64,000 nucleotides of DNA from Pegea sp. RAD2-039 (taxonomy: Eukaryota; Chordata; Thaliacea; Salpida; Salpidae): contig JAQGEQ010000189.1 in NCBI GenBank assembly GCA_034620365.1, positions 124,001-188,000 on the forward strand, written 5' to 3'. Numbering within the stretch: position 1 is the stretch's first letter; every line of letters begins with the position of its first letter. The notes under the pieces are model-generated. The model was not told the DNA's origin and searched no databases. It was given only the letters and a program-made list of their open reading frames with translations. Both the position numbers and the translations under genes were made by a program. Below are positions 2,528 to 64,000 of the stretch, one piece after another.

Positions 2528-2637
2528 GTTGAAACTTGTTCAACTCCAAAAATTTTAAAGTTCACAATGTGGTTGATAAACAATTTTACGCCGATTTCTT
2601 TCTTTATATAAGTTTTACTAGTTTAGTGTTTGTGGTG
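2528..2637 (-). ncRNA. Sm-RNA-like unit 1
   Basis: The 19-bp block is at 2,637-2,619, the TATA box at about 2,611-2,603, the Sm site at 2,554-2,545 and a perfect hairpin at 2,544-2,528. The variable segment (about 2,581-2,555) contains CACATTGTGAAC. It is identical to that of unit 9, its partner in the large inverted repeat. Confidence 0.5.
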
Positions 2638-2922
2638 TAAATTTTCTAAAAAATTATTTCGTCAAAAAAATTATCTGAATTGATTTCTGCTAGCTACTTT
2701 TTACTAAAAAGCTTTTATCTAAATTATCTAAAAATATTATTATAATGAATTTATGATTTAATATAATTGAAGAGATGGCAAAATATCAGAATGATGCAAC
2801 TTTGAGACAAGTGGTTAGAGAGTTTGAAGATCAAAATAACAAGATGATAAAATTATATTTGAATCTTTAAATCAAGAGATTTATATTTATAAGAAAGGCA
2901 CTAAAATAATTTAGCAGCACAT

Positions 2923-2940
2923 TTACGTATGCGGTAAAAT
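2923..2940. repeat. Junction motif TTTACGTATGCGGTAAAA
   Basis: This 18-bp motif marks the switch from the inverted arm (left) to cargo (right). Its inverse is at about 4,126-4,143. The same pair brackets cargo throughout the window, with about 25 occurrences if one- or two-base variants are counted. Examples are at 12,008, 15,774, 25,662, 43,119, 50,835 and 57,028. Confidence 0.65.
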
Positions 2941-2952
2941 ACACTTTTGATA

Positions 2953-3240
2953 TTCCCGGTCTGGGAACTTTGTTTTAACAATTTTTTTCAGCCCGATTTA
3001 TCTGGTAAAATGATGTTAGTGTATTTATTGATGGCAGCAACTCGTTCAATAAATGATGATAAATACGTGATTGTATCAAATTACACGCAAACGCTCGATT
3101 ACTGTGAAAAATTGTGCCGTATGAGGAGGTAGAAAACTTGATGATGATGAATTTCAATCAACATTTTGTTGTCAGATACGGATATGTAAGATTAGATGGA
3201 AGTATGTCTATTAAAAAAAGATCTAAAATCCTAGAACGAA
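2953..3240 (+). pseudogene. RAD54-like exon fragment, copy A (short type)
   Basis: The last 17 bases of a tRNA-Glu (TTCCCGGTCTGGGAAC) precede a polypyrimidine-AG acceptor. An exon (2,992-3,128) then encodes [19 protein letters not shown] through SNYTQTL to EKLCRMR, matching the RAD54 segment leading into helicase motif V. A 47-bp intron with intact GT and AG ends follows, then [10 protein letters not shown] (from 3,176). RAD54 similarity stops near 3,237 and AT-rich cargo continues. With tens of codons against about 750 in RAD54 it cannot be functional. The retained intron implies capture of genomic DNA. Confidence 0.8.
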
Positions 3241-4126
3241 TTGTATAATTCTTTTTGAAAATTTTTGTTTTTTATTTGGAAGCTTTAAAATGATTCTACG
3301 CAGTTCTAGAGAAAGACCAAAATTGGCCGAAATAATTATTTTCTCAATTCTAAATGTTTTTTTCTAACAATTCTTTTAAAGAACAGTTTATATATAATTG
3401 TTTCAAATGAAATATTTTTTATGCAAACAAACAGGATATATTTTTATTTAAAGTCAAATTTTTTTTAACTTTTATGTTCTTCTTGATATTTTACTTTTTT
3501 CAGTTCTTTTCAATTCTATAGTTTAAATATCTTTTTTATTTTAATAAGTTTTTGATTTGAAATTTTTAGATATTATAATTTATATTTATTATTTACAGTT
3601 TTTGTAAGTTGAATTTATAAAATGTTTTTATAAATAAATTACCATTAAAAATTTATTTATTTTTTTTACTTAAAATTTCAAAAGTTTATTTTGAAATTAT
3701 GTTTCATACTAAATAAAATTTTTTTAAAAATTATTACAAAATTACATTTAAAATTTCTTCTATAAGTTTTTCCAAGCGTTTCTTACAATATATTTTTTTA
3801 AAAGCTTTTAACTTTGAAATTGAAAGGATGTTATCAGTTTATATTGACTAATATTAAGAAAAATTAAGGTATTGTCAAATAATTATTTGAAAACCTTACC
3901 GTATAGTTATGAGAAAGTTTGCGTTGCGTAATTTTTCATTAATATCATTTTTAAATTATATATGAATTGAAAGCTGCTTACTAGGTAACTGTTGAAATGT
4001 TTTGAATTATTATTTATTTTAATAAGTAACTTTAAAAAAAAACCATTTTGTTGGGTGTTGCTACACTAGTTGTTTGTTTGTTTGACGAACAAGTAGTAAA
4101 GCAGGAGGCTAAATCTAGTAGAATTT
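3240..4126. repeat. AT-rich cargo tail shared by all RAD54-bearing elements
   Basis: The segment is dominated by T and A runs and recurs after every RAD54 fragment (near 11,210, 15,400 reversed, 20,040, 22,740, 42,800 reversed, 47,370, 50,070 and 57,780 reversed). Toward its right end a 24-codon open block (about 4,048-4,120) reads like [20 protein letters not shown] and is conserved in all copies. No gene was recognised. Confidence 0.6.
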
Positions 4127-4284: not shown

Positions 4285-4392
4285 CAAAACAAACACTAAG
4301 CTAATAGAAATCTTTATAAAGGAACAAATCTGCGTAACGGTGTTTTAGAATTTTTCAAACAATTTAATTTTTGGAGTTGAACAAGTTTCAAC
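4285..4392 (+). ncRNA. Sm-RNA-like unit 2 (reference description)
   Basis: Each unit of this family has, in order, a 19-bp block resembling a proximal sequence element (here 4,285-4,303), a TATA box (CTTTATAAAG, about 4,311-4,320), a CAGCG-like block, a variable segment (about 4,338-4,365), an Sm site AATTTTTGGAG (4,366-4,376) and a hairpin GTTGAACAAGTTTCAAC with a 6-bp stem and 5-nt loop (4,376-4,392). If transcription starts 25-30 bp after the TATA box, the RNA is about 55-65 nt, the size of U7 snRNA. A T5 tract in the Sm site argues for RNA polymerase II rather than III. Downstream, a conserved GATTAAACTTAAATTATCTT-type stretch in many copies could be a 3'-box. The domain order is seen directly, and the snRNA reading is inference. 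Alternatives are a spliced-leader-type RNA or a passive repeat motif. Confidence 0.5.
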
Positions 4393-6065: not shown

Positions 6066-6171
6066 GTTGAAACTTGTTCAATCTCAAAATTTAATTGAAA
6101 AAATCTTGAATAAAACCTTTACGCAGATTTTTTAGTTTATAAAAATTTCTACTAGTTAAGTGTTTGTGGTG
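6066..6171 (-). ncRNA. Sm-RNA-like unit 3
   Basis: The 19-bp block is at 6,171-6,153. The TATA box is changed to TTTATAAAC. The Sm site is damaged (AAATTTTGAGA) and the outermost hairpin pair is lost. The variable segment is about 6,117-6,093. It forms an outward-pointing pair with unit 4. Confidence 0.4.
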
Positions 6172-6559: not shown

Positions 6560-6670
6560 CACCGCAAACACTAAACTAATCGAAATTTATATAAAGGAAC
6601 AAATCAGCGTAAAATTGTATTTCATATGAGTAGCTATTACTATAACTTTTAAAGTTGAACAAGTTTCAAC
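6560..6670 (+). ncRNA. Sm-RNA-like unit 4
   Basis: Block 6,560-6,578, TATA box TTTATATAAAGG and hairpin (6,654-6,670) are intact. The Sm site is decayed to AACTTTTAAAG. The variable segment is about 6,615-6,643. The block between units 3 and 4 carries no RAD54 cargo, so this may be an empty element. Confidence 0.4.
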
Positions 6671-7365: not shown

Positions 7366-7439
7366 GGCCGGTTAGCTCAGTTGGTTAGAGCGTCGTGCTA
7401 ATAACGCGAATGTCGCGGGTTCGATCCCCGTACTGGCCA
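7366..7439 (+). tRNA. tRNA-Ile (AAT)
   Basis: The full cloverleaf can be drawn. The acceptor GGCCGGT pairs with ACTGGCC, the D arm is TAGCTCAGTTGGTTAGA, the anticodon stem TCGTG pairs with CGCGA around loop CTAATAA, and the T arm is GCGGGTTCGATCCCCGT. The anticodon is AAT. Box A and box B are canonical. The second anticodon-stem pair is C-G, against G-C in the human sequence I recall, so pairing is kept. It lies 9 bp before the tRNA-Asp gene in the same direction. Confidence 0.95.
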
Positions 7440-7448: not shown

Positions 7449-7520
7449 TCCTCGTTAGTATAGTGGTGAGTATCCCCGCCTGTCACGCGGGAGACCGGGG
7501 TTTGATTCCCAGACGGGGAG
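7449..7520 (+). tRNA. tRNA-Asp (GTC)
   Basis: The acceptor TCCTCGT pairs with ACGGGGA (one G-T pair). The anticodon stem CCCGC pairs with GCGGG around loop CTGTCAC, giving anticodon GTC. The discriminator is G. The T loop is TTTGATT rather than TTCGATT, a small deviation in box B. A TTTATTTT tract just downstream may serve as terminator. Confidence 0.93.
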
Positions 7521-9823: not shown

Positions 9824-9936
9824 GTTGAAACTTGTTCAACTCTAAAAATTAAAATTTATTTAATGATGTATTTCACAAACAATTTTACGCTGATTTTTTG
9901 TTTATATAAATTTCTAGTAGTTTAGTCTTTGTTGTA
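9824..9936 (-). ncRNA. Sm-RNA-like unit 5
   Basis: The 19-bp block (9,936-9,918) has three substitutions. The TATA box TTTATATAAAC and CAGCGTAAAA are intact. The Sm site is AATTTTTAGAG and the hairpin is perfect. The variable segment is about 9,882-9,851. A conserved GATTAAACTTATATTATCTT stretch lies downstream. Confidence 0.5.
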
Positions 9937-10613: not shown

Positions 10614-11171
<558 letters not shown>

Positions 11172-12311: not shown

Positions 12312-12419
12312 CACCACAAACACTAAACTAATAGAATTTTTTATAAAGAAACAAATCAGCGTAAAAGCGTCTTCATCACTTGGATAAATTGTTATTTTTA
12401 GAGTTGAATACGATTCAAC
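12312..12419 (+). ncRNA. Sm-RNA-like unit 6
   Basis: The block is intact (12,312-12,330). The Sm site is ATTTTTAGAG. The hairpin (12,403-12,419) keeps the stem, but the loop is changed so that a seventh pair forms (GTTGAATACGATTCAAC). The variable segment is about 12,367-12,392. Unit 23 has the same segment and unit 18 a diverged one. Confidence 0.5.
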
Positions 12420-12600: not shown

Positions 12601-12710
12601 CACTACAAGCACTAAACTACTAGAAATTTATATAAAGTAAAACGTCAGCGACTTAAGCGATTAATAAATATATAAATTTTCTTAATTTTTGGAGTTGAAC
12701 AAGTTTCAAC
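12601..12710 (+). ncRNA. Sm-RNA-like unit 7
   Basis: Tandem with unit 6, 182 bp downstream in the same direction. Block CACTACAAGCACTAAACTA, TATA box TTTATATAAAG, perfect Sm site (12,684-12,694) and hairpin (12,694-12,710). The variable segment (about 12,651-12,683) begins CTTAAGCG and is shared with units 17 and 24. CAGCGACT lacks the GT that a spliced-leader donor would need. Confidence 0.5.
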
Positions 12711-14103: not shown

Positions 14104-14215
14104 GTTGAAACTTGTTCAACTATAAAAATTGAAGAATTTTTTGACATAATCAGCCTGAATTTTCTATGCTGAATTTTTCTTTATATAAATTTCTAGTAGT
14201 TTAGTGTTTGTGGTG
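14104..14215 (-). ncRNA. Sm-RNA-like unit 8
   Basis: Block (14,215-14,197), TATA box and hairpin are intact. The Sm site is AATTTTTATAG. The variable segment (about 14,167-14,131) contains TTCAGGCTGATTATG, unlike any other unit. It is the mirror partner of unit 2 in the inverted repeat, yet its variable segment is unrelated. Confidence 0.48.
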
Positions 14216-16074: not shown

Positions 16075-16184
16075 CACCACAAACACTAAATTAGTAAAAC
16101 TTATATAAACAAACAAATCATCGTAAAATTGTTTATCAACCACATTGTGAACTTTAAAATTTTTGGAGTTGAACAAGTTTCAAC
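16075..16184 (+). ncRNA. Sm-RNA-like unit 9
   Basis: Block CACCACAAACACTAAATTA, TATA box TTATATAAAC, Sm site AATTTTTGGAG (16,158-16,168) and a perfect hairpin. The variable segment (about 16,129-16,157) is identical to unit 1. Confidence 0.5.
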
Positions 16185-18255: not shown

Positions 18256-18363
18256 CACCACAAACACTAAACTATCAGAAATTTATATAATGAAACAAAT
18301 CAGCGTAATTGCGTCTTTATTACTTCTAGAAGTTTTAATTTTTAGAGATGAATAAGATTCTAC
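18256..18363 (+). ncRNA. Sm-RNA-like unit 10
   Basis: Block, TATA box (TTTATATAATG) and Sm site (AATTTTTAGAG) are present. The hairpin is broken at the second and third pairs (GATGAATAAGATTCTAC). The variable segment (about 18,309-18,336) contains TTATTACTTCTAGAAG and is shared with unit 20. Probably inactive. Confidence 0.38.
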
Positions 18364-19188: not shown

Positions 19189-19251
19189 GTCTAGTTTTTA
19201 GGATTCGTGGCTATCACCCACGCGGCCCGGGTTCGATTCCCGGTCTGGGAA
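19189..19251 (+). pseudogene. 5'-truncated tRNA-Glu with altered anticodon loop
   Basis: The first nine or so bases are lost and the D arm is degraded (GTCTAGTTTTTAGGATTCG). The rest is intact. The anticodon loop is CTATCAC instead of CTCTCAC, so the anticodon would read ATC. A second copy at 46,513-46,576 carries the same change. It directly precedes RAD54 copy D. Confidence 0.75.
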
Positions 19252-19277: not shown

Positions 19278-19973
19278 CCGGATTTATCTGGTAAAATGAT
19301 GTTAGTGGATTTATTGATGGCAGCAACTCGTTCAATAAATGATGATAAATACGTGATTGTATCAAATTACACGCAAACGCTCGATTTATGTGAAAAATTG
19401 TGCCGTATGAGGAGGTAGAGAACTTGATGATGATGAATTTCAATCAACATTTTGTTGTCATATACGGATATGTAAGATTAGATGGAAGTATGACTATTAA
19501 AAAAAGATTTAAAATCGTAAAACGATTCAATGATCCAGCATCTCAAGATTTTGTGTTTATGTTAAGTAGTAAGGCAAGAGGGTACGATAAACAGTGTTTC
19601 CAAACAAAAAATTTAAAAAAAATTTCAATTTTTAGATGCAGTTTAAATTTGATTGGTGCAAATCGGTTAGTTATGTTTGATCCTGATTGGAATCCTGCTA
19701 ACGACGAGCAGGTCATGGCTAGAGTGTGGAGAGACGGACAAAAAAAATTATTATGTTTACTGGTTGAAAATTTACAAAAAAATCAATTGGAAACACTAAA
19801 AATTAAAATGACGGAAAATGGCTTCTTGCAGATTACTTGCAACTTCAAGTATTGAAGAGAAAATATTTCAGCGCCAAGCTCGTAAAAAGTCACTTTAGTC
19901 GTGTGTAGTAGACCGTGAAAAAGATTTAGCTAGACATTTCTCACGTGATCAGCTACGTCAATTTTTTATTTGA
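19278..19973 (+). pseudogene. RAD54-like exons, copy D (long type)
   Basis: Four exons are present: 19,278-19,414 ([19 protein letters not shown] to EKLCRMR), 19,462-19,581 ([10 protein letters not shown] to [12 protein letters not shown]), 19,636 to about 19,765 ([20 protein letters not shown] to RVWRDGQKK) and about 19,832-19,973 ([14 protein letters not shown] to RDQLRQFFI). The acceptor of the second exon reads AT instead of AG, there is a stop after KKSL in the last exon, and KPCYIYR is lost. The last exon breaks into non-RAD54 sequence and a TGA at 19,971. It is a pseudogene, but it shows the captured span best. Confidence 0.82.
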
Positions 19974-21117: not shown

Positions 21118-21224
21118 GTTGAAACTTGTTCAACTTCAAAAATTATTTAAACATTTCTTTCATTGATAATCAAACGCTGATTTTTTCCTTTATAAATATA
21201 TCTAGTAGTTTAGTGTTTGTGGTG
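21118..21224 (-). ncRNA. Sm-RNA-like unit 11
   Basis: Block 21,224-21,206 is intact. The TATA box is TTTATAAAGG. CAGCGTTTGA replaces CAGCGTAAAA. The Sm site is AATTTTTGAAG and the hairpin is perfect. The variable segment is about 21,173-21,145. Unit 21 matches at its 5' end only. Confidence 0.48.
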
Positions 21225-22016: not shown

Positions 22017-22126
22017 GTTGAAACTTGTTCAACTCCAAAAATTTAATAGTTCACAATGTGGCTCATAAACAATTTTACGATGATTTGTTTGTTTATATAA
22101 GTTTTACTAGTTTAGTGTTTGTGGTG
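22017..22126 (-). ncRNA. Sm-RNA-like unit 12
   Basis: All elements are intact. The variable segment (about 22,072-22,044) is a version of unit 1 in which ATCAACC became ATGAGCC and ACTTTA became ACTATT. Identical to unit 22. It pairs outward with unit 13 around RAD54 copy E. Confidence 0.5.
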
Positions 22127-23944: not shown

Positions 23945-24054
23945 CACCGCAAACACTAAACTAATCGAAATTTATATAAAGAAAATAATAAGAGTAAAAG
24001 AAAATACTTGAAGACGCCATTGTAGTTAATTATGGGAGTTGGACTAGTTTCAAC
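23945..24054 (+). ncRNA. Sm-RNA-like unit 13
   Basis: Block CACCGCAAACACTAAACTA and TATA box are intact. AAGAGTAAAAG replaces CAGCGTAAAA. The Sm site is degraded (AATTATGGGAG). The hairpin GTTGGACTAGTTTCAAC keeps pairing through a G-U wobble. The variable segment (about 23,998-24,027) contains GAAGACGCCATTG. Confidence 0.42.
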
Positions 24055-25265: not shown

Positions 25266-25375
25266 GTTGAAACTTGTTCAACTCAAAAAATTAACAACTA
25301 TTCAATGTATTTATTGAACATTTTTACGATGGTTTGTTGGTATATATAAGTTTTACTAGTTTAGTGTTTGTGGTG
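25266..25375 (-). ncRNA. Sm-RNA-like unit 14
   Basis: Block, TATA box (TTATATATACC) and hairpin are intact. The Sm site is AATTTTTTGAG. The variable segment (about 25,321-25,294) is unique to this unit. It pairs outward with unit 15 around the second tRNA-Glu. Confidence 0.48.
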
Positions 25376-26047: not shown

Positions 26048-26119
26048 TCCCAGGTGGTCTAGTGGTTAGGATTCGTGGCTCTCACCCACGCAGCCTGGGT
26101 TCGATTCCCGGTCTGGGAG
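26048..26119 (+). tRNA. tRNA-Glu (CTC)
   Basis: The acceptor TCCCAGG pairs with TCTGGGA without the mismatch of the 10,614 copy. Anticodon loop CTCTCAC gives CTC. The T stem CTGGG pairs with CCCGG. The discriminator is G. The upstream 370 bp match the 10,614 locus, but no RAD54 exon follows. The element carrying it ends in unit 15. Confidence 0.9.
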
Positions 26120-26430: not shown

Positions 26431-26538
26431 CACCACAAACACTAAACTAATATAAATCTATATAAAGGAAAATAACTGCGTAAAAGTACTCTGCTAATAT
26501 TTCGAACATTTAATTTTTAGAGTTGAACAAGTTTCAAC
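26431..26538 (+). ncRNA. Sm-RNA-like unit 15
   Basis: Block intact, TATA box CTATATAAAGG, Sm site AATTTTTAGAG, perfect hairpin (26,522-26,538). The variable segment (about 26,486-26,511) reads GTACTCTGCTAATATTTCG near its start and is unique. Confidence 0.5.
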
Positions 26539-27580
26539 AAATTATTTCAATAATTATTCTAAATTTCTTCTTTAATTCGATAGCAAAGATTATTTGCTGA
26601 ATCAAACTTTAGTAGTTTTCAATTTGTACCTTTACACAGAACTTTAAAACTTTTAACTGCTTCCAGTAAATTATTAAAGTGTTTTAAACATTTTTTCAAT
26701 CAATGTTTTGTTGATGGTAATCTAGTCAGGGTTTGGTTCATAATATCGGCTCCCTATACAACAACTCCTTTTACTACTAACTGAGGTTTTTTTTGGCGAC
26801 ATTTTAGGTAAACTGATTTAACTCTACTTTACGTCTACTGCTTCGAAACTCAGTCAGTAAAAAGATGAAGATAAAGACTCACATCCACAAAAGATGCGTT
26901 TTTATAATCACTTTCACTTGTATTTGTTGATTTCGGGAGGACAACTCTAGAATGATCATCTGAAGATGATCATCTGAAGATGAAGAAGATCAGATGATGT
27001 AGTCTCATCAACAAGTATCTTACATGGAATGATATTTGTCTATCTGTTCTTATCTTTGTTTTGAGGTTTCTCTCCTTGACTTCGAAGTCCTTTTCCTATT
27101 GGTAAACTCTAAACCAATAAATTTAATCTCGAGTCATCTACATCTTTCGGACTCACGCTGAACTCTTCTCGAAATGGTTTATTGTCATCAGATATTCTTC
27201 TAATTTATATTGTAAATAAAACCCAGTTTTTCTTTAAAATGATTTTAAATTTCATCAGTGACTAAAAAATTATGAAATTTTTGAGCTAATAATAGAAAGA
27301 GATTAAAATGAATATTACGTGGCTTTATTCTTTATTTTTTCAAGAGTTAATTTTATAATTTATTTTAAATTGAAGAATTGTTCACGAATCTTTTCATAGT
27401 GAATAATCAAGAAATTAATAAACGGAATCTTATTTTCATCTTTTTAATTTAACTTTCAATTTAAATTATTTCTATCAAACGCTTTCAACAAAAGCTTTCC
27501 GTTTTCTTTCAGGCCTAAAATACACTTCTTTTAATAGCTTCATTCAAAGATTTTAAATAACTTTTATTTATAGATTCCCT
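26539..27580. other. Transition from repeat to single-copy DNA
   Basis: To about 26,820 this is the usual unit 3' flank with a minus-strand VVEG-type exon block. From there the sequence is unique. Near 26,953-26,990 GATGATCATCTGAA is repeated twice in tandem, followed by a degenerate third copy. No coding region could be supported. Confidence 0.5.
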
Positions 27581-27584
27581 AACA

Positions 27585-27592
27585 TATATAAA
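27585..27592 (+). promoter_or_regulatory. Candidate TATA box of the EndoU-like gene
   Basis: TATATAAA lies 228 bp before the start codon, in an otherwise AT-rich stretch. The position fits a 5' UTR of about 200 bases, but chance occurrence is easy at this composition. Confidence 0.25.
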
Positions 27593-27819
27593 CGTAAAGC
27601 TTCGGTACAGAATTATTTTAAATTAAAGTTCTTCTAACTTAAGTTAAGGTTTTCTTATGATAAAAACTAATTAATTCGTTTATGTTAAAATAAGTTAAAA
27701 ATTTAATGATTTTATATAAAATATTTTCCTTTAGAATCAAATAATATGTAATTATCATTAGTAACTTTCCTGATCACTTTTTTGTTCCAAATTTAGGTTT
27801 TCAAGTTCAGTTGGAAACA

Positions 27820-29748: not shown

Positions 29749-29760
29749 TTAACATTTAAA

Positions 29761-29766
29761 AATAAA
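29761..29766 (+). terminator. Candidate poly(A) signal AATAAA of the EndoU-like gene
   Basis: The hexamer begins 13 bases after the stop codon, close but usable. AT-rich context lowers confidence. Confidence 0.35.
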
Positions 29767-29769
29767 ATA

Positions 29770-31760: not shown

Positions 31761-31821
31761 ATTTTTCAGATTTATACAACTTGCTCATGTAATGTAAATT
31801 ATTTTGATCTTCAAAATCACA

Positions 31822-35802: not shown

Positions 35803-36070
35803 ATCACTGATTCTACAAACTTTTAATAACAGCTGATTGCTTTAGTTAGTCTCTTGGGAAATTTGATGAAAGAATTCTTTGAAAGTAAATAGAGTTGAGA
35901 TAAATCATTTTTATCAAAAGGTTTTTGTTAGTTATAAAAGCTAACTTACAAACTTTTAAATAATTTCTATTTCAGACAATTTATAACTTTAAAAGTTTTT
36001 TGATATAAGTTTAAATGATTTCTTATTAACAAAACCATTGAATAAATATTTCAACCTTAAATGTTATTGA

Positions 36071-37030: not shown

Positions 37031-40020
37031 CATTTCGATGGTTATTTTAAAAAAGAATATTTTATAAAAAGAAACTTAATAATTGATTATACCGATGATT
37101 TTATAGAAGATAAATTTAGTTGATTAATTGGTAATTGATTAATAAAGTCTCTCAATCAATTATGGAATATTTTCTTTAATATTTAAAGAGTATCTGATTT
37201 TGTTTACTACAAAAACTTTTAAAAAATAAATTTAAAAGTTTCTAAATGATTTAAATCATGTAAAGTATTAAGCTTTGTAATTAAGAAATATTAAATTAAG
37301 GTTACAGCTGTTCAATTGTAAACTTTTAAAAGAGCTTAAATAACGATTTATCTCAATAATTTATAACCTGAAAGTAAAGCTGAAGAAAGAAGTTATTAAT
37401 TCAAGCTTATTAGCTGATGATTTTTGATAAGTATAACTTTAGTTTTAACCTTAAAATTTGTAGCTTGTGGCTCTCTTGTGACATCTAGCGTTTGTTAAAA
37501 AATTATTTGACTTAATTTTATAAACTATAAAAAGTTATTTGTAAACTATAAAGAATATTTTCTATAACATTAAAAATCAAAACCTTTTTATAATAATAAA
37601 AGCTTTTTTCAAATATTCAGAACATTTTAGTAAGCTATTAAAAAGAATATCTTAAAATAAAATTGTTTAAACTTAACTAGAAAGTTTTTAACTCATTTAA
37701 AAAGACAAAGAATATATTATACAAATTGGATAACAAACTTTTTTAGCATTTAGATATTTAGAATTAAAAAAAAAACATTTAAATTTTATTTATTTTTAGC
37801 TACAATCAACCTTTATTTCATTGATTAATTTTTAAATTTTTATTATTTGTATTTATAGGTTTACAGCTTATAAGGCAAAGAAAATATTTGCTTAAAATGA
37901 AAAAGTAAATAATTCTTTAAAATTGTTCAAGCATTAGGATTTAAGAAATATATTTATCTAGTGTGTGACTTGATATGAAATGAATTTATTCTTTTATTGC
38001 TTAGTTTATTGATTTTTGGTAAATTTTACCTCAAAATTAAATGTAAATTTAAGGTTTAATCAATCATAAAAAAATTACGTCAAACTAAAAAAAATTACTA
38101 AAATTTTCCACAGTCAATTTACAGCTAAAATATTTTAAAAACTTTTTTATTAAAGTATTCATAAAGTTTACTCGAAAAAAAAAATATTTTTAGATATCGT
38201 TGGTATAATAATATTATTGGTAATTAAAAAAAACTTGATACAAATTCTTTATCAGTTCGTTTTAGTTTATGTTTTGTTAGCTACTTTTCAAGAATTTGAA
38301 TATTTCATATTAAACGTAAATGTTTGGAAACTAAACTATTATAAACATTTAATCAATTTAAAAGTCAAAAATAAACCTTGTTTTAAACGAAAATAAATCA
38401 TACTTTTCATATGATCATGTCTAAAATGTTTTCAAAAATATTTATTTCAGACGAAACGTTACGTAAGCAATCATACTTTGCACACGGCACGTGGTTCCTG
38501 ACATTTATAACCTAAAAATGCTGAAATTTAACATTTCTTAAATAAAACGTCATAAATATGAAGAAAAACAATAAAAGCATTCCTAGAATTTATAAACTGA
38601 ATTTTTGTAAATTTAAAAAGATTTAATTATTAATCATTTAATGGATTTTTGATTTTGAATAATTATATGAATATTTTAAATAAACAATTTTAGTATTTTA
38701 TAATGTTTTTAAGTTTACTAATTTAAGTTCCTTATAAAGTTTATAGAATTATTTCTTATAGAAATTTACAAATTGAATTCTATGTTTTATTGTCACTAAA
38801 AAAGCTTTTAAACAATAAATAAGCTAAATAAAGATTAAAGGTCAGATGAGAAATAAAAACGCTTTTAAATTATGCAAATTTATATTTCCTATCAGAAACT
38901 TCTTGTTTAAAATTTTATTCAACTATTTTATAAATAAAGGTCACTGGGTCGCTAATAAATTGTAAAAAAGCTGACTTAGATGTTTTAAATTCCAATAAAA
39001 TGCCAATCAAAACTTTTAACAAAAATATTTCAAATTTATTGAAAAAAATTTAATTAATAATTGTAAGAGAACTACACATCTAAAGAAGTTTTGATGAAAT
39101 ATTTCAAAGTTTTTCAGCATCAAAATAACTTTCTACTTCAAAATTGATTTAATTAAAAACATAGAAACTAAATCTGAATAAATTATTTGAAGAAATCATT
39201 ATTGAAATAATTAAGTTTTCCAATTCGGTTTTGGCGTTATTGGAACTTAGCAACAGATAGTTTTAATTAAAAATATTTTGAAATAAACAAAATTGGAAAG
39301 AAATCGTTTCTTAACTTTAAAAAGAATTTGTTTATTTCTCAAGCAAACTTATTAAAGTTATGAAACTCTAAAAATTTGAATTTATATCAAATCGTTTTTT
39401 TAAAAGGTAGTAGTCGAAAAATTTGTTGAAAGTTTAAAAGTATTTTTAACTTGAAGTGAAATCAGAATAATATTCCCTGAAGCATTTTGTAGTTTCCAGT
39501 ATTAGTGGAAATATCATTTAATTGTTTCCATAAAACAAAAAAGATTATTTACAAAAATTCAAATTTCACAAACTCTCTTATCAAACAAAACCATAAATAA
39601 AACATTATTTTTTCGCTTTTGAATTTTATTTTAAAATAACAACTTTACAAATTTTTAGTTTTTAAACTTCCCTGTCAATGATAAAACTAAAATTCGTTAA
39701 ATGAAGTTACAAAACATCTTTTTATTAATATTTATTGATATTGCAAATAGTTTAAGAGTTAAAAATATTAAAAAAAACATTTCACAGTTAAAAGTGTTAA
39801 TTAAATTGATTTGCATCAACTGATTACTGATTAAAAAATCCTTATTTTTATTGTATAAACTGAATACAATAGAGTATATTTCACTTTTATTGAATAGATG
39901 CTTAGAAAGAAACATAGAAAGCAAAAAATAAAGATTTTGACAAAATTTTAAAAAGAATCTAACATTTATTCATGGTTAATAAAACATCAAACTTATTTAC
40001 AACAAATAATTTACAAGAAT
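37031..40020. other. AT-rich intergenic DNA
   Basis: Three kilobases of unique, strongly AT-rich sequence. The few 60-75-codon frames consist of Phe, Ile, Asn and Lys and reflect composition. No tRNA, repeat unit or coding exon could be supported. Confidence 0.45.
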
Positions 40021-40028
40021 TCCACTTT

Positions 40029-40130
40029 CTAAGAACGCTTACAAATAGCGATAAGATGCTTACATTTGGGACATAGATGGTGGACATCTTTAAGATCATT
40101 AATGCAAAATGGGATCAGACATAAACAAAA
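40029..40130 (-). pseudogene. C-terminal end of a LITAF-domain protein
   Basis: On the minus strand a frame ending at TAG (40,031-40,029) reads FFCLCLIPFCINDLKDV then HHLCPKCKHLIAICKRS. This is the second half of the LITAF/SIMPLE domain: a hydrophobic membrane-inserted stretch, then the HxCPxC zinc knuckle and a basic C-terminus. LITAF proteins are monotopic proteins of late endosomes. The first CxxC half and all upstream exons are absent. Repeat DNA starts at about 40,132, so the gene was either cut by the repeat insertion or this is its last exon with the rest far away. Confidence 0.6.
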
Positions 40131-40232
40131 AAATATATTTAGATAATTCAAATAAAAACTTTTAAGTAAAAAGTAGCTAAAAGAAGTCATTACAGAAAAA
40201 TTTTTTGACGAAATAATTAATTAGCAAATTTA

Positions 40233-40348
40233 CACCACAAACACTAAACTAATCGAAATTTATATAAAGAAACAAATCAGCGTACAATCGATTATGAAAT
40301 TTTTATTGGCGATATATATTTAATTTTTGGAGTTGAACAAGTTTCAAC
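40233..40348 (+). ncRNA. Sm-RNA-like unit 16
   Basis: First unit to the right of the single-copy core. Block (40,233-40,251), TTTATATAAAG, CAGCGTACAA, Sm site AATTTTTGGAG (40,322-40,332) and a perfect hairpin. The variable segment (about 40,285-40,320) is long, at about 36 nt, and unique. A 3' GATTAAACTTAAATTATCTT stretch is intact. Confidence 0.52.
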
Positions 40349-41252: not shown

Positions 41253-41362
41253 GTTGAAACTTGTTCAACTCCAAAATTTAAGAAAATTTATATATTTATT
41301 GATCGCTTAAGTCGCTGACGTTTTACTTTATATAAATTTCTAGTAGTTTAGTGCTTGTAGTG
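41253..41362 (-). ncRNA. Sm-RNA-like unit 17
   Basis: Same variable segment as units 7 and 24 (about 41,312-41,279). Sm site AAATTTTGGAG, perfect hairpin, TATA box intact. Confidence 0.48.
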
Positions 41363-41544: not shown

Positions 41545-41651
41545 GTTGAATCGTATTCAACTCTAAAAATAACAACTTATGCAATGATGAATACGCTTTT
41601 ACGCTGATTTGTTTCTTTATACAAAATTCTATTAGTTTAGTGTTTGTGGTG
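41545..41651 (-). ncRNA. Sm-RNA-like unit 18
   Basis: Tandem with unit 17. It shares the extended-stem hairpin GTTGAATACGATTCAAC with units 6 and 23. Its variable segment (about 41,596-41,572) differs from theirs at five or more positions while the flanks are nearly identical. Confidence 0.48.
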
Positions 41652-43422: not shown

Positions 43423-43534
43423 CACCACAAACACTAAACTAGTAAAACTTATATAAAGCAACAAATCATCGTAAAATTTTTCAAGAAAATCATTATGAGA
43501 AATTTTTAATTTTTCGAGTTGAATAAGTTTCAAC
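43423..43534 (+). ncRNA. Sm-RNA-like unit 19
   Basis: Block and TATA box are intact. Sm site AATTTTTCGAG. Hairpin GTTGAATAAGTTTCAAC has a loop change only. The variable segment (about 43,477-43,507) contains CAAGAAAATCATTATGAG. It sits where unit 9 sits in the paralogous segment but has a different variable segment. Confidence 0.48.
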
Positions 43535-45602: not shown

Positions 45603-45710
45603 CACCAGAAACACTAAACTATCAGAAATTTATATAATGAAACAAATCAACCTAATTGCGTCTTTATTACTTCTAGAAGTTTTAATTTTTAGAGATGAAT
45701 AAGATTCTAC
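45603..45710 (+). ncRNA. Sm-RNA-like unit 20
   Basis: Counterpart of unit 10 in the direct repeat, with the same variable segment and the same broken hairpin. It has lost one base of the 19-bp block and CAGCG has become CAACC. Probably inactive. Confidence 0.33.
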
Positions 45711-48446: not shown

Positions 48447-48553
48447 GTTGAAACTTGTTCAACTCAAAAGATTATAAAATGAATTCTTTTATTGATAATC
48501 AAACGCTGATTTTTTCCTTTATATAAATATCTAGTAGTTTAGTGTTTGTGGTG
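48447..48553 (-). ncRNA. Sm-RNA-like unit 21
   Basis: Counterpart of unit 11. Sm site ATCTTTTGAG is damaged. The variable segment (about 48,503-48,475) shares the first 12 or so bases with unit 11, then diverges. Confidence 0.42.
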
Positions 48554-49345: not shown

Positions 49346-49455
49346 GTTGAAACTTGTTCAACTCCAAAAATTTAATAGTTCACAATGTGGCTCATAAACA
49401 ATCTTACGATGATTTGTTTCTTTATGTAAGTTTTACTAGTTTAGTGTTTGTGGTG
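49346..49455 (-). ncRNA. Sm-RNA-like unit 22
   Basis: Identical variable segment to unit 12 (about 49,401-49,373). TATA box changed to TTACATAAAG. Sm site and hairpin perfect. Confidence 0.46.
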
Positions 49456-51137: not shown

Positions 51138-51245
51138 CACCACAAACACTAAACTAATCGAATTTTGTATAATGAAACAAACCAGTGTAAAAGCGTCTTC
51201 ATCACTTGGATAAATTGTTATTTTTAGAGTTGAATACGATTCAAC
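51138..51245 (+). ncRNA. Sm-RNA-like unit 23
   Basis: Same variable segment as unit 6 (about 51,193-51,218). TATA box weakened (TTTGTATAATG) and CAGTGTAAAA for CAGCGTAAAA. Confidence 0.43.
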
Positions 51246-51426: not shown

Positions 51427-51536
51427 CACTACAAGCACTAAACTACTAGAAATTTATATAAAGTAAAACGTCAGCGACTTAAGCGATCAATAAATATATA
51501 AATTTTCTTAAATTTTGGAGTTGAACAAGTTTCAAC
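51427..51536 (+). ncRNA. Sm-RNA-like unit 24
   Basis: Same variable segment as units 7 and 17 (about 51,476-51,509). Sm site AAATTTTGGAG, hairpin perfect. Tandem with unit 23. Confidence 0.47.
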
Positions 51537-52462: not shown

Positions 52463-52578
52463 GTTGAAACTTGTTCAACTCCAAAAATTAGAATTCATAT
52501 TTGCATTAAAGTATTTCTTAAACAATTGTACGCTGATTTTTCACTTTATATAAATTTCGATTAGTTTAGTATTTGTGG
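52463..52578 (-). ncRNA. Sm-RNA-like unit 25
   Basis: Sm site AATTTTTGGAG and hairpin perfect, TATA box intact. The 19-bp block is truncated at its outer end (CC missing, joined to TTATTAG). The variable segment (about 52,527-52,490) is unique and about 38 nt. Confidence 0.45.
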
Positions 52579-55560
52579 CTAATAAATTATTTCGTAAAAA
52601 AATTTTCTGAATTGATTGCTGTTAGCTACTTTTTACTTAAATATTTTTATTTAAATTATCTAAAAATATTTTGTTAGTAAATTAATGATTTAATATATCT
52701 GAAAAGATGAGAAAATATCAAAATGATGAGTCTTTGAGACAAGTGGTTAGAGATTTTAAAGATTAAAATAACAAGATGATAAAATTATATTTGAATCTTT
52801 AAATCAAGAGATTTGTATAGTATTAAGAAATGCATTATAATAATTTAGTATCACATTTACGTATGCGGTAAAATACACTTCTGACATGTATTTCAAACAT
52901 CACAGCTTTTCATCTATTCTTAGATTGAAAATGTTCAATCTAAAAGACAAGATTAATGTTAATAGGTTAAATTTGCTTTTAAATCTTCATCTTTATTATT
53001 TAATATGATGTCATGACTTCGACTTGACAACTTTTGATCATATTATAAAGGTCATATAAAGTTATAAAAATTTACTAAGTATTTAACTACCTTACATACT
53101 CTCAAACGGAAATTTTTTTCTGACGAATTAATTCATTAGGAAATATACACCACAAACGCTAAACTACTAGATATATATATAATGGGAAAAAACTCAGCGT
53201 TTGAATATCTATAAAGACATATAAATCGTTAATTTTATGGAGTTAAACAAGTTTCAACAAATCATTTCAAAATTAAACTTAAATTATCTTCCTTGATCAA
53301 ATAGAAGGGATTATTCGCTAAATCAACATTTTGTACTTTTAAGTTTGTACTTTTTCACAGCATTTAACCTTTAACAAAAATTTAATATATTCTATTATAT
53401 CAAAACTTCTAATAAAACTGAAAGTTAGTTTGATTAATTTAACAAAAAATTGAAGATAAATAAAAAAGTTTTATCAGCACAATTTATTTCAAATGTTTTA
53501 ATTGAAATAAATGTATTTTGTTTATTTTTTGTATAACAATGTTGATATTTCATAAAAACAAAATAAATCAGGCCTAAATAGGCAGACAGGTAAGTTTAGT
53601 TATTTAATTTTTGTTTATCAGTTACATATAAAACTGATTGAAATTGATGTTAATATATTAATATTTATATTAAAATTTGATGCTTCTCAAATTAAGTAGT
53701 AAATTATTTAATGCAGGCCAACGTAGTTAAAACAATCAAGAAAGATTCCATCAAAAAACTATTTGTAAATGAAGACTAATACATGATGTTAAATATAAAT
53801 CAAAATATTGAATACCACACTATACAATATACCTTGATACTAATACATGATGTTAAATTTAAATTAAAGAAAATTAAAGCAATTAATTTCTATTCAACAA
53901 CATTTTGATTTCTCTTAATTTCGTTTTATTAAATTAATAATATTGGCTTTTATATCTTAAAATAAGTCAAATAATAAACAGAATATAATTTTTTGTTGAA
54001 AGAGAAGATAATTATAAACTTTCTGATTCGAGTTTTTACTTTTGGATGCGTAAGAAAATGTAAATTAAAAGTTTATCTTTTATATGATTTACTTATCTTA
54101 ATATTATTTTAATTTGGAAGCCTTACTTTCGTGAAAATTTATAAAATGTAAATAAAAAAAATTATAAACAGTTACTCAGTTTTTAACTACCTTACAAATA
54201 CTCAAACATTAATTAAATGTAATTGGCCTCAATAATATATAAAAAATCAACAATTATTTCCATTGAAAAATTATAGTGCCTAAAAAGATATATCATCTGG
54301 TTTAAAATTGTTAGAAATTTCAGTAATCGACTTGACTACTACTATTAAGTCTTCAAATAGAACATGGAATCACTAAATAAGCTTATTAGTAAATAGTCAA
54401 ATTTTGTTCATGACTATGATATATATAAATTAAATTAAAGTTTATATAACATAATATTTTATTATAAATCTAATGTTTAAAAAAAGTGAGAATTGTTTCA
54501 GTAATTAATATAAGTAATTTTTCAAATAAATGTTTTATGAAGTAAGATGATAGTATTGAGTTTTAATTTCGTCATTTTAATAATTTACTTTTTCAACAAA
54601 GTTATTATTTTCCTTATTATGTATTTGTAATTTATTTCTATATCAGTTTTAAGCTTGTAGTTTTCTACCGTATAAGATAAAAAACAACTTATTATGGCAA
54701 AAATAATTGGGTAACTGACTTAATATAATCAATTGTAATTCACTTTTGGTAAAAAAAGATAACATCAAAGCCACTAATAGTTATAGAAAACAAGGTTTAT
54801 AACTCTATTCATCATGAAGTCATGTTTAGTATTCTCTGTATTTCTTGTTTGATGTTTTAAACAAAACATCAAAACTACTTTTAAACAAAGTTAATAATCC
54901 AACAGATTTATTTCTAATTTTTTACAAAATAAAAATAAAAATTAATTTTAACTTTTAAATTTAATATTCAATCTGATTAAAAACTTTGATGATTTAACCA
55001 ACTGCTGATAAAATGCCTTCTGTACACGGACCTCCAGTTTCTTTATTGGTAACTTGGCTGGTACTTTCTTCCTAATTGTAATCAACAAAACAATTAGAAA
55101 ATGAGATGAAATAGGACGGAATTCTGTTTGTACTTAATTTATATTTACATCCACCAATCAAATAAGTTAGTATGGAAGCAAACAATAGATCAATTACAAC
55201 TTAACTTACCTTGTACAGCAGTTCATATGTTTTATTTCTTCAACAAACTCAACAATCGTGGAAGGTTATAATGAAAATACAAAACGACATCTAAACCTCT
55301 TGTTTTGTTTTACTGAGTTCACATGTTTTGGTTTTACAACAATAACCTTTCTTCTACTGGCGTACTTTGCACTTTTACATAATTTCTAAAATTAATCTTC
55401 AACATATTAAAAGATTTATTATAAACATTGTAGCTTCCTAGTAGTCGTTGTTACGCTCGAAAAAACTTTCTTTACAACTAGCAGTCAGCCAAATGTCACC
55501 ATAATTGTACTCATTGAAATAAGTTTATTTATAATCTCTTTTTTATATTCTAAAATCATA
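52560..55560. repeat. Direct segmental copy (partner about 61,020-64,000)
   Basis: Sequence recurs at an offset of 8,460 bp, very nearly identical over 54,480-55,560 against 62,940-64,000. It includes unit 26 against unit 30 and the whole of the block seen at 1-1,960. Confidence 0.8.
53148..53258 (+). ncRNA. Sm-RNA-like unit 26
   Basis: Block CACCACAAACGCTAAACTA, TATA box in a TATATATATAAT run, Sm site AATTTTATGGAG with one insertion. The hairpin has one mismatch (GTTAAACAAGTTTCAAC). The variable segment (about 53,200-53,230) resembles unit 30 in its first half only. Confidence 0.42.
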
Positions 55561-56391: not shown

Positions 56392-56499
56392 GTTGAAAAT
56401 TATCCAACTCTAAAAGTTGATACTTATAAAAGTCATAAAGATGTTTTTACGCTGATTTGTATCTTTATATAAATTTCGATTAGTTTAGTGTTTGTGGTG
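56392..56499 (-). ncRNA. Sm-RNA-like unit 27
   Basis: Block, TATA box (TTTATATAAAG) and CAGCGTAAAA intact. Sm site ACTTTTAGAG. The hairpin GTTGGATAATTTTCAAC retains pairing through a G-U wobble. The variable segment (about 56,447-56,419) contains CATCTTTATGACTTTTAT. Confidence 0.46.
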
Positions 56500-58916: not shown

Positions 58917-59047
58917 CACCACAAACACTAAACTAGTAAAATTTATATATAGCAACAAATCAGCATAAAATTGTTTGAGAAAAACATTTTTATTAATTAT
59001 TATATTTATTATTATTATTTAATTTTTGGAGTTGAACAAGTTTCAAC
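58917..59047 (+). ncRNA. Sm-RNA-like unit 28 (expanded variable segment)
   Basis: Block intact, TATA box TTTATATATAG, CAGCATAAAA. The variable segment (about 58,974-59,020) is stretched by a (TAT)n-like run, making the unit 131 bp against 106-116 elsewhere. Sm site and hairpin are perfect. Probably a replication-slippage derivative. Confidence 0.42.
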
Positions 59048-60780: not shown

Positions 60781-60782
60781 AA

Positions 60783-60813
60783 AGGAAGGTATATCTCGCT
60801 AACACACATTCTA
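60783..60813 (-). mobile_element. Small LINE/SINE tail scrap
   Basis: About 30 bp match the CTCGCTAACACACATTCT part of the shared LINE/SINE tail at 36,115. A GC-richer stretch to about 60,880 follows, unlike its surroundings. Confidence 0.35.
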
Positions 60814-60942
60814 ACGAGTTTCTTATGGTTTTTCTCAGGAGTTTATAAGTATGTCTCCATCCGGGGTCAAACTCGATACTTCAGCAAATAATCTTTGCTA
60901 TCGAATTAAAGAAGAAATCTAGGATAAATATTGAAATAGTCT

Positions 60943-61050
60943 GTTGAAACTTATTCCACCTCTAAAATTAAATGTTTGAAATAAATGTACTGTACTTTGA
61001 AGAAGATATTTTCTATTTTATAAATTTCGATTAGTTTAGTGTTTGTGGTG
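60943..61050 (-). ncRNA. Sm-RNA-like unit 29
   Basis: Block intact, TATA box TTTATAAAATAG. The CAGCG block is lost (ATCTTCTTC). Sm site AATTTTAGAG, hairpin with one mismatch. The variable segment (about 61,005-60,971) contains AAAGTACAGTACATTT. Likely decayed. Confidence 0.35.
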
Positions 61051-64000
61051 TAAATTTGCTAATAAATTATTTCGTAAAAAAAAAATTTTCTGAATTGATT
61101 GCTGTTAGCTACTTTTGACTTAAAAGTTTTTATTAAAATTATCTAAAAATATTCTTTTAGTAAATAGATGATTTAATATAATTGAAAAGATGGGAATATA
61201 TCAAAATGATGCGTCTTTGAGACAAGTGGTTAGAGAGTTTGAAGATCAAAATAACAAGATGATAAAATTATTTTTGAATCGTTAAATCAAGAGATATTTT
61301 TAGTATTCAGAAGTGCACTATAATGATTTAGCAACACATTTACGTATGCAGTAAGATACACATTTGATATGCAGTTCAAACAACACAGCTTTTCATCTAT
61401 TCTTAGATTGAAAATGTTCAATCTAAGAGACAAGATTAATGTTAATAGGTTAAATTTGCTTTTAAATCTTCATCTTTATTAGTTAATATGATGTCATGAC
61501 TTCGACTTGACAACTTTTGATCATATTATAATGATCATATAAAGTTATAAACATTTACTAAGTATTTAACTACCTTACATGCTCTCAAACGGAAATTTTT
61601 TTTCGGATAATTTAATTCATTTGCAAATATACACCACAAACACTAAACTACTAGATATATATATAACGGAAAAAATCAGCGTTTGAATATCTACAAAAGC
61701 AATTAATTTGTTAATTTTTGGAGTTGAACAAGTTTCAACAGACCATATCAAAATTAAACCTAAATTATCTTCCTTAATCAGATTGAAAGGATTATTTGCT
61801 AAATCAACATTTAGTACTTTTAAATTTGTACTTTTTCACAGAATTATTTAAACTTTAACAATAAATCAATATATTCTATTATATCAAAACTTCTAATAAA
61901 ATTGAAAATTAGTTTGATTAATTTAACAAAAAATTAAAGATAAATAAAAAAGTTTTATCAGCACAATTTATTTCAAATGTTTTAATTGAAAAAAAAATTA
62001 TTTTTTTATTTTTTTATAACAATGTTGATATTTCATAAAAACAAAATAAATCAGGTCTAAATAAGCAGACAGGTAAGTTTAGTTATTTAATTTTTGTTTA
62101 TCAGTTACATATAAAACTGATTGAAATTATTGTTAATAACTTAATTATTATATTAAAATTTGATGCTTCTCAAATTAGGTAGTAAATTGTTCAATGCAGG
62201 CCAACGTAGTTAAAACAATCAAGAAAGATTCCATCAAAAAACTATCTGTAAATGAAGACAAATACATGATGTTAAATATAAATTAAAATATTTAATACCA
62301 CACTATACAATATACCTTGATAATAATACATGATGTTAAATTTAAATTAAAGAAAATTAAAGCAATTAATTTCTATTCAACAACATTTTGATTTCTCTGA
62401 ATTTCTTTTTATTAAATTAATAATATTGGCTTTTATATCTTGAAATAAGTCAAATAATAAACTGAATATATTTTTTTGCTGAAAGAGAAGATAATTATAA
62501 ACTTTCTGATTCGAGTTTTACTTTTGGATGCGTAAGAAAATGTAAATTAAAAGTTTATCTTTTATATGATTTACTTATTTTAATAATATTTTAATTTGTG
62601 AAAATTCATAAAATATAAAAAAAAATTATAAACAGTTACTCAGTTTTTAACTACCTTACAAATACTCAAACATGAATTAAATGTAATTGGCCTCAATAAT
62701 ATATAAAAATCAACAATTATTTCCATTGAAAAATTATAGTGCCTAAAAAGATATATCATCTGGTTTAAAATTGTTAGAAATTTCAGTAATCGACTTGACT
62801 ACTACTATTAAGTCTTCAAATAGAACATAGAACCACTAAATAAGCTTATTAGTAAATAGTCAAATTTTGTTCATGACTATGATATATATAAATTAAATTA
62901 AAGTTTATACAACATAATATTTTATTATAAATCTAATGTTTAAAAAAGTGAGAATTGTTTCAGTAATTAATATAAGTAATTTTTCAAATAAATGTTTTAT
63001 GAAGTAAGATGATAGTACTGAGTTTTAATTTCATCATTTTAATAATTTACTTTTTCAACAAAGTTATTATTTTCCTTATTATGTATTTGTAATTTATTTC
63101 TATATCAGTTTTAAGCTTGTAGTTTTCTACCGTATAAGATAAAAAACAACTTATTATGGCAAAAATAATTGGGTAACTGACTTAATATAATCAATTGTAA
63201 TTCACTTTTGGTAAAAAAAGATAACATCAAAGCCACTAATAGTTATAGAAAACAAGGTTTATAACTCTATTCATCATGAAGTCATGTTTAGTATTCTCTG
63301 TATTTCTTGTTTGATGTTTTAAACAAAACATCAAAACTACTTTTAAACAAAGTTAATAATCCAACAAATTTATTTCTAATTTTTTACAAAATAAAAATAA
63401 AAATTAATTTTAACTTTTAAATTTAATATTCAATCTGATTAAAAACTTTGATGATTTAACCAACTGCTGATAAAATGCCTTCTGTACACGGACCTCCAGT
63501 TTCTTTATTGGTAACTTGGCTGGTACTTTCTTCCTAATTGTAATCAACAAAACAATTAGAAAATGAGATGAAATAGGACGGAATTCTGTTTGTACTTAAT
63601 TTATATTTACATCCACCAATCAAATAAGTTAGTATGGAAGCAAACAATAGATCAATTACAACTTAACTTACTTTGTACAGCAGTTCATATGTTTTATTTC
63701 TTCAACAAACTCAACAATCGTGGAAGGTTATAATGAAGATACAAAACGACATCTAAATCTCTTGTTTTGTTTTACTGAGTTCACATGTTTTGGTTTTACA
63801 ACAATAACCTTTCTTCTTCTGGCGTACTTTGCACTTTTACATAATTTCTAAAATTAATCTTCAACATATTAAAAGATTTATTATAAACATTGTAGCTTCC
63901 TAGTAGTCGTTGTTACACTCGAAAAAACTTTCTTTACAACTAGCAGTCAGCCAAATGTCACCATAATTATACTCATTGAAATAAGTTTATTTATAATCTC
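61020..64000. repeat. Direct segmental copy, cut by the window end
   Basis: Partner of 52,560-55,560. The copy runs off the window, so its right boundary is unknown. Confidence 0.8.
61632..61739 (+). ncRNA. Sm-RNA-like unit 30
   Basis: Block, Sm site AATTTTTGGAG and hairpin perfect. TATATATATAAC replaces the usual TATA box. The variable segment is about 61,682-61,711. Counterpart of unit 26 in the 8.46-kb direct repeat. Confidence 0.48.

Follow-up and report, generated by a model that had tools for sequence, protein, structure and literature searches.

What do the short repeated units of this window encode, and what might their variable front ends do? The window is the whole stretch of DNA analyzed here, 64,000 nucleotides (nt) of Pegea sp. 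RAD2-039 (bases 124001 to 188000 of contig JAQGEQ010000189.1, hereafter C102), and between its positions 2528 and 61739 one gene-like unit recurs thirty times. These units appear to be promoter-bearing genes for Sm-class RNAs, and the reading that we favor, and hold to be probable, is that they encode natural antisense small nuclear ribonucleoproteins (snRNPs), i.e., Sm RNAs with a 5' guide arm that would pair to messengers. This reading is carried by a promoter shared with the genome's own small nuclear RNA (snRNA) genes, by an arm that changes faster than its surroundings, and by two arms of a sister family that are antisense to coding sequence. The genome (105.7 Mb in 387 contigs) has U2, U5, U6, U3, U4, U11, and selenocysteine transfer RNA (tRNA-Sec) genes; its guanine-plus-cytosine (GC) content is 25% in the window and mostly 28 to 31% in the other loci fetched.

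The units carry the promoter of the organism's own snRNA genes

We scanned the window for the promoter block CACAAACACTAAACTA (at most 3 mismatches) followed, at the right spacing, by a TATA-like box, an Sm-like site, and a 17-nt hairpin. The block is a match to the proximal sequence element (PSE) of snRNA genes; PSE-like matches numbered 38, of which 30 were followed by the complete set and the remaining 8 lacked the rest of the unit, and each of ten controls, made by shuffling the window in blocks of two bases, had between 0 and 5 PSE matches. The computed outer ends, 2528 and 61739, equal the range given in the initial annotation, whose claim of thirty units with constant order and spacing is thereby borne out.

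That annotation had also taken a 19-bp block upstream of each unit for an snRNA promoter, and had named beforehand a comparison with the organism's known snRNA promoters. This comparison was run, and the block was present in them. In the U6 and U2 loci printed, the PSE reads CCCACAAACACTAAACT, CCCACAAACACTAAGCT, or near forms, the variants at the U5 loci show at most 3 differences, and a genome search with the general form CCCACAAAYACYAARCTT (at most 1 mismatch) returned 118 places versus 1 for the reversed control. Rfam, applied to 20 of the 40 PSE-bearing stretches fetched, gave matches to U3 (three), U4 (two), and U11, tRNA-Sec, and snoU6-53 (one each). Thus, the 19-bp block or a close variant is the PSE of the U2, U3, U4, U5, U6, U11, and tRNA-Sec genes examined. 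As an observation in its own right, the tRNA-Sec gene (L114, on contig C28) and the U3 genes (L107, L108, and L110) share the snRNA PSE of this genome.

To place the RNA start, the C of CACAAA in the PSE was counted as position 1, and the first RNA nucleotide was taken from RNA family boundaries. It fell at 57 in all eight U2 genes, at 54 to 55 in the seven U5 genes measured (of 8 loci; L030 was unmeasurable), at 57 to 58 in three of three U4 genes, at 57 in three of three U3 genes, and at 57 in the single U11 gene; that is, at 54 to 58 in the 22 genes of the RNA polymerase II (Pol II) type measured, versus 62 to 63 in all eight U6 genes. A Pol II start of the units is therefore expected at 54 to 58. 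By eye, their TATA box lies ~26 nt from the PSE start, compared with ~29 nt in U2 and ~33 nt in U6, a spacing nearer the U2 layout than the U6 layout. Sequence conservation among the units fades at about position 50, and a variable stretch runs from there to the Sm-like site, which starts at position 77 to 102 in the 30 window units. The CAGCG block, initially listed between the TATA box and the differing sequence, falls upstream of the predicted RNA start, and the predicted RNAs measure 49 to 74 nt (median, 53 nt).

The Sm site of these 30 units is within 2 mismatches of AATTTTTGG in 29 and identical to it in 10, and the hairpin has all 6 pairs in 25 and at least 5 in 28. At gathering score, Rfam reported only tRNAs in the window, with no match to U7; a permissive scan added to the tRNAs three weak matches (E 4 to 5), which we took as chance, one of them being Yfr13 over unit 7 on the opposite strand. 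The units thus combine the organism's own PSE at Pol II-type spacing with a canonical Sm site and a terminal stem-loop, as expected of an Sm-class snRNA gene. As read from the sequence, they are promoter-bearing Sm-class RNA genes, because the 19-bp block is the genome's own snRNA PSE.

The units are listed below by window position, the rows of units 1 to 30 resting on the promoter-anchored scan and on computed unit ends.

2528..2634, minus strand: unit 1, with PSE, TATA box, arm of 26 nt, Sm site AATTTTTGGAG, and hairpin; predicted RNA 2528-2580
4288..4392, plus strand: unit 2; predicted RNA 4342-4392
6066..6168, minus strand: unit 3, Sm site AAATTTTGAGA; predicted RNA 6066-6114
6563..6670, plus strand: unit 4, Sm site off consensus (AACTTTTAAAG); predicted RNA 6617-6670
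9824..9933, minus strand: unit 5; predicted RNA 9824-9879
12315..12419, plus strand: unit 6; predicted RNA 12369-12419
12604..12710, plus strand: unit 7; predicted RNA 12658-12710
14104..14212, minus strand: unit 8; predicted RNA 14104-14158
16078..16184, plus strand: unit 9; predicted RNA 16132-16184
18259..18363, plus strand: unit 10, hairpin with 4 of 6 pairs (GATGAA..TTCTAC); predicted RNA 18313-18363
21118..21221, minus strand: unit 11; predicted RNA 21118-21167
22017..22123, minus strand: unit 12; predicted RNA 22017-22069
23948..24054, plus strand: unit 13, Sm site AATTATGGGAG; predicted RNA 24002-24054
25266..25372, minus strand: unit 14; predicted RNA 25266-25318
26434..26538, plus strand: unit 15; predicted RNA 26488-26538
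40236..40348, plus strand: unit 16; predicted RNA 40290-40348
41253..41359, minus strand: unit 17; predicted RNA 41253-41305
41545..41648, minus strand: unit 18; predicted RNA 41545-41594
43426..43534, plus strand: unit 19; predicted RNA 43480-43534
45606..45710, plus strand: unit 20, hairpin with 4 of 6 pairs; predicted RNA 45660-45710
48447..48550, minus strand: unit 21; predicted RNA 48447-48496
49346..49452, minus strand: unit 22; predicted RNA 49346-49398
51141..51245, plus strand: unit 23; predicted RNA 51195-51245
51430..51536, plus strand: unit 24; predicted RNA 51484-51536
52463..52577, minus strand: unit 25; predicted RNA 52463-52523
53151..53258, plus strand: unit 26; predicted RNA 53205-53258
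56392..56496, minus strand: unit 27; predicted RNA 56392-56442
58920..59047, plus strand: unit 28, with the longest arm (47 nt); predicted RNA 58974-59047
60943..61047, minus strand: unit 29; predicted RNA 60943-60993
61635..61739, plus strand: unit 30; predicted RNA 61689-61739
1920..2090, minus strand: degenerate 31st unit, in which a TA run replaces the PSE region and the Sm site and hairpin are altered

The window belongs to a larger family with two sister families

The family, first put at about 30 members, extends well outside the window: the unit-type promoter CACAAACACTAAACTANTNGAAA (at most 2 mismatches) occurs at 199 places in the genome versus 2 for the reversed control. Among the 100 of these 199 places that were listed, 99 lie on two contigs, where they span 12 to 248 kb of the 251-kb C102 and 157 to 294 kb of the 622-kb C247; the single listed place on contig C1 is not a unit. 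From the promoters on the two contigs we picked 39 extra units by perfect promoter match alone, namely 20 of the 32 on C102 outside the window and all 19 on C247. The Sm site lies within 2 mismatches of AATTTTTGG in 38 of the 39, failing only in L071, and in 37 the variable arm is followed by a hairpin that keeps at least 5 of its 6 pairs. Over the resulting 69 units, which we call family A, the Sm site is within 2 mismatches in 67 and the stem-loop has at least 5 of 6 pairs in 65 and all 6 in 50. Their arms are of 57 distinct sequences, falling into 26 groups at 70% similarity, and are 22 to 47 nt long (median, 26 nt), which replaces the initial figure of 25 to 40 nt for the variable segment.

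The general PSE search also revealed two families, B and C, with the same layout and other hairpins. Family B has at least 29 promoters across nearly the whole of the 116-kb contig C188. We fetched 21 copies (L084-L095 and L135-L143), one of which was too short, and used the 20 full copies; 15 of these fit a loose Sm-plus-hairpin pattern, typically AATTTGGAAACCGC.....GCGGTT, and 5 (L085, L137, L139, L142, and L143) fall outside it. For family C, 13 copies on contig C72 and 2 on contig C94 were found among the matches listed (L096-L099 and L124-L134). All 15 were fetched, and all 15 carry AATTTTT[A/G]GAACCG plus the following hairpin. They have 7 distinct arm sequences, versus 12 in family B, and form four arm classes, between which promoter and flanks differ by ~8 to 12% and arms by 0.34 to 0.35 per site, i.e., to saturation. 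Rfam matched no family in two family C sequences and one family B sequence. Separately, inspection by eye showed that family C genes of classes a and b have a short inverted repeat, imperfect in class a, that lies between the TATA box and the predicted start; its sequence differs between the two classes.

The arm changes faster than its flanks in families A and B

Rates of change were compared in nearest-neighbor pairs with flanks less than 15% different, each unit being used once, by the Wilcoxon test. In 31 pairs of family A, the per-site difference was 0.125 in the arm, compared with 0.049 in the flanks, 0.060 in the promoter, and 0.054 in the Sm site plus hairpin. The arm exceeded the flanks in 20 of the 31 pairs (p = 0.0014); it changes ~2.5 times faster than they do. 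Likewise, the arm of family B differed by 0.169 per site versus 0.049 in the flanks (6 pairs; p = 0.031). Over more distant pairs, the Sm site and hairpin were more conserved than the flanks (0.10 versus 0.17 and 0.11 versus 0.25).

Two arms of family C are antisense to coding sequence

Because family C arms are richer in G and C than those of families A and B, and so suited to a genome search, we searched the genome with two of their cores, C-a and C-b, at up to 3 mismatches and with reversed-pattern controls. Core C-b matched its 7 family copies, one place on contig C43 with 2 mismatches, and one place on contig C214 with 3 mismatches; besides its 4 family copies, core C-a hit a single place, on C43, with 2 mismatches. 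Neither reversed pattern gave any match. Hence, both cores tested have exactly one two-mismatch match outside the family, and both matches lie on C43, a contig of 763 kb that makes up 0.7% of the genome. With independent bases, the number of two-mismatch matches expected by chance is 0.07 (C-b) and 0.006 (C-a) at 30% GC, and at most 0.12 and 0.018, respectively, at 40% GC.

On C43, each match lies antisense to coding sequence. The C-b match is opposite an open frame immediately ahead of the B56 domain in a PP2A B56-like gene (the joined stretch matches Pfam PF01603 at E 2.1e-13, and by eye further B56-like stretches come after it in order). The C-a match is opposite the beginning part of a frame of 424 codons that encodes a protein kinase domain (PF00069, E 1.8e-48). 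The C-b duplex comprises 23 nt (21 Watson-Crick pairs, 1 G:U, 1 mismatch) and the C-a duplex 22 nt (20 Watson-Crick pairs, 1 G:U, 1 mismatch). In promoter coordinates, the C-b duplex occupies 56 to 78, with the Sm site starting at 79, and the C-a duplex 58 to 79, with the Sm site starting at 83. Both begin at the predicted RNA start and end either at the Sm site (C-b) or 3 nt before it (C-a), and the duplexes therefore cover nearly the whole predicted 5' arm. Their energies are -36.8 (C-b) and -37.0 (C-a) kcal/mol. Shuffled arms average -15.2 and -16.7 kcal/mol, the best among 300 shuffles reaching -28.9 and -27.3, and swapped arm-target pairs give -17.8 and -19.4 kcal/mol. A putative donor lies 26 nt beyond the end of the C-b site, and the A of a possible start codon precedes the start of the C-a site by 44 nt, so that blocking of splicing or of translation would both be possible.

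We also compared arms with their reversed forms in ~190 kb of other loci (382,800 letters on both strands, family loci and window excluded), in 80 kb of C43, and in the window outside the units. The highest score of any reversed arm was 43, 43, and 46, respectively, and the best family A arm reached 42, 39.5, and 39. Only the class a and b arms of family C rose above the highest reversed arm. Some arms exceeded their own reversed arm only and were not counted (A_L070, 42.0 versus 34.5; C-d, 36.5 versus 31.5). Thus, a 5' arm antisense to a coding gene, as an antisense guide should have, was found for classes a and b of family C only. The initial suggestion of diversified guide ends gains support through this sister family, whereas none of the arms of the window's own family surpassed the highest reversed arm in the small part of the genome covered.

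A possible mechanism and the points that weigh against it

Promoter identity, layout, clusters, the fast-changing arm, and a 22- to 23-nt antisense complementarity for two family C arm types are written in the DNA itself. Under the antisense snRNP reading, the Pol II snRNA promoter would make a short capped RNA, predicted at 49 to 74 nt, composed of a single-stranded 5' arm of ~22 to 37 nt (47 nt at the longest), an Sm site at or near the canonical form, and a short hairpin at the end. An Sm ring would form on AAUUUUUGGAG and keep the RNA stable like any snRNP, and the hairpin would close the 3' end. The free 5' arm could then pair, as an antisense guide, with a messenger or pre-messenger RNA, and this pairing might block the splicing, processing, or use of the target, or send it to decay. 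The genome would amplify these genes in clusters and diversify their arms.

Several results weigh against this reading. Regarding the units themselves, the Sm pattern is lost in 1 of the 39 extra family A copies (L071) and in 5 of the 20 full family B copies, and therefore part of the copies may be dead. Hairpins do survive loop changes and G:U pairs, as initially described, but no two-sided compensatory change was seen within family A, and the units at 18259 and 45606 keep 4 of 6 pairs. Among recent pairs of family A, conservation of the Sm site plus hairpin does not exceed that of the flanks (p = 0.72), and arms compared inside the classes of family C change no faster than their flanks (7 pairs; p = 0.5). 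As to targets, candidates exist for two arm types only, both in family C. Each of the two duplexes contains one mismatch and one G:U pair, variants of class b form weaker duplexes at the C-b site (-32.7, -28.0, and -26.2 kcal/mol), and the exon of the B56-like gene that holds this site is a putative one, read from an open frame with putative splice sites. No family A or B arm scored above the highest reversed arm in the small part of the genome searched, these arms being AT-rich, and the C-c and C-d arms gave nothing convincing in the 80 kb of C43 (C-d, 36.5; reversed C-d, 31.5; highest reversed arm, 43).

Alternative explanations

Some of these points fit an alternative that we regard as rather unlikely, in which a repeat amplified an ordinary snRNA-type gene whose arms are unconstrained, the RNAs needing only the Sm site and hairpin (SmY-like, as an Sm sponge, or with no role). 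The units do sit within large segmental repeats, as the initial idea of spread by a repeat had it; Sm sites are damaged in part of the copies; no family A target signal was seen in the small part of the genome searched; and recent pairs show no extra conservation of Sm site and hairpin over the flanks. Yet the family A arm is faster than the neighboring flanks, not equal to them (p = 0.0014), the copies picked by promoter keep the Sm site within 2 mismatches (38/39) and at least 5 hairpin pairs (37/39), and two family C arms are antisense to coding sequence with the predicted arm boundaries.

It is very unlikely, in our judgment, that the family C arms are accidental copies of C43 gene fragments, made during repair or conversion, and do not serve as guides. 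Both matches are antisense and run from the predicted RNA start to the Sm site or 3 nt before it, which argues against such copying, even though both genes lie on one contig (C43) and gene pieces do occur in such repeats, the helicase piece in the window repeats being an example.

The initial annotation had likened the units to U7; that they are U7 snRNAs diversified for the many histone gene variants of this genome strikes us as highly improbable. The layout does fit, with a similar length, an Sm site plus one hairpin, and a free 5' arm, and histone stem-loops are matched at 68 places in the genome (E 0.001 or better), of which 35 pass the Rfam cut-off. What does not fit is the Sm site, which is AATTTTTGGAG-like and not of the U7 type AAUUUGUCUAG, together with the absence of an Rfam U7 match in the window and of any excess arm complementarity to the stretches that follow histone stem-loops (22 sequences; mean z, -0.22 for family A, -0.20 for family B, and -0.53 for family C). 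The histone genes L076-L083 have the stem-loop GGTTCTTTTTAGAACC, often followed by ACTTATTCAAAATTTGA or similar. Two single PSE-bearing stretches, L105 (contig C14) and L116 (contig C39), have an Sm-like site and a hairpin and received no Rfam name; considered as the true U7, they were rejected, showing no excess histone pairing (z, -0.24 and 0.46), and the genome's true U7 was not found.

Scarcely credible, finally, are spliced-leader (SL) RNAs with hypervariable leaders that donate 5' ends to mRNAs: SL RNAs too are short, of the Sm class, and made by Pol II, and many leaders exist in some animals, but the arms do not show the splice donor expected after a leader (no GT in 21 of 69 family A arms or in the class C-b arm, and GTRAG or GTAAA in only 2 of 69), and family C matches coding sequence in the antisense rather than the sense orientation.

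Relation to known systems

We return to the antisense snRNP reading and its closest relatives. Like the present units, U7 snRNA has a 5' pairing arm, an Sm-type site, and one hairpin; it differs in its Sm site, and here no histone complementarity was found and ~200 promoters carry different arms. U7 snRNA is ~60 nt long (PMC7026596). The engineered form, U7 SmOPT, comes closer. Changing the U7 Sm site AAUUUGUCUAG to AAUUUUUGGAG yields an abundant antisense RNA, and the construct shares with the units the site AAUUUUUGGAG, a 5' antisense arm (20 to 45 nt in usual designs), and an snRNA promoter, and carries the U7 3' end (PMC11232981). In contrast, it is man-made and mostly aimed at splice sites, whereas the units are genomic and clustered, with many arms and two candidate sites in coding sequence.

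The Herpesvirus saimiri HSURs are Sm-class RNAs that base-pair with host mRNAs, and thus natural Sm RNAs can pair with mRNAs; as described in PMC6763288, these are seven viral genes, and HSUR2 acts without a fixed seed region and delivers microRNAs, whereas in the present family C one arm of 22 to 23 nt pairs nearly in full, by sequence. The nematode SmY RNAs are likewise a small multigene family of Sm RNAs, in which, unlike here, two stem-loops flank the Sm site and the first has conserved sequence (PMC11229312). As a candidate identity, SmY was rejected: the best hit of a genome search with model RF01844 reached 25.8 bits versus a cut-off of 39, and hits lay on contigs other than those of the clusters. 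The type I Piwi-interacting RNA (piRNA) genes of Caenorhabditis elegans (21U) resemble the units in their large clusters of tiny, independently transcribed genes and their snRNA-type transcription complex, but their 21-nt products, made from short capped precursors, load Piwi. Such piRNA products are not known to have an Sm site or a terminal hairpin. The literature surveyed yielded no family of cellular Sm RNAs whose antisense arms vary.

Other features of the window

A single reading frame of 1,272 amino acids with an N-terminal protein kinase domain (PF00069, E 5.6e-79) lies inside the array, in the unit-free stretch 26538-40236; from its layout we take it to be, perhaps, STK36/Fused. The repeat D7 recurs five times, and the domain scan covers the helicase piece at 19394 only, which is SNF2/RAD54-like.

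31798-35616, plus strand: reading frame with the kinase domain
19394-19855: SNF2-like helicase piece (Helicase_C, E 6.4e-12), overlapping an array repeat copy
2969, 19255, 22463, 46579, 49791: copies of repeat D7
7366-7439, 7449-7520, 10614-10685, 26048-26119, plus strand: four tRNA genes within the array
19189-19243: partial tRNA match in the array

What the units may mean

The two near-perfect antisense front ends in the sister cluster suggest a natural version of the engineered U7 antisense RNAs. We infer transcription, capping, Sm binding, and a silencing or splice-blocking outcome, and likewise that the family A arms act in the same manner. A broader proposal, which we see as evenly balanced, is an evolvable, genome-encoded antisense system built on snRNPs: at least 3 clusters and over 200 promoters would supply replaceable guides of at least 22 nt, each pairing with a particular mRNA, and the repertoire would be kept and diversified much as in piRNA clusters, perhaps against fast-evolving duplicate signaling genes such as the B56-like and kinase genes of C43.

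If this is true, a eukaryote uses snRNPs rather than Argonaute proteins as programmable antisense guides, with a repertoire amplified in clusters, and the U7 SmOPT design of gene therapy has a natural counterpart. It would also amount to a new route of gene regulation or conflict control, for which the C43 duplexes name the first two candidate targets.

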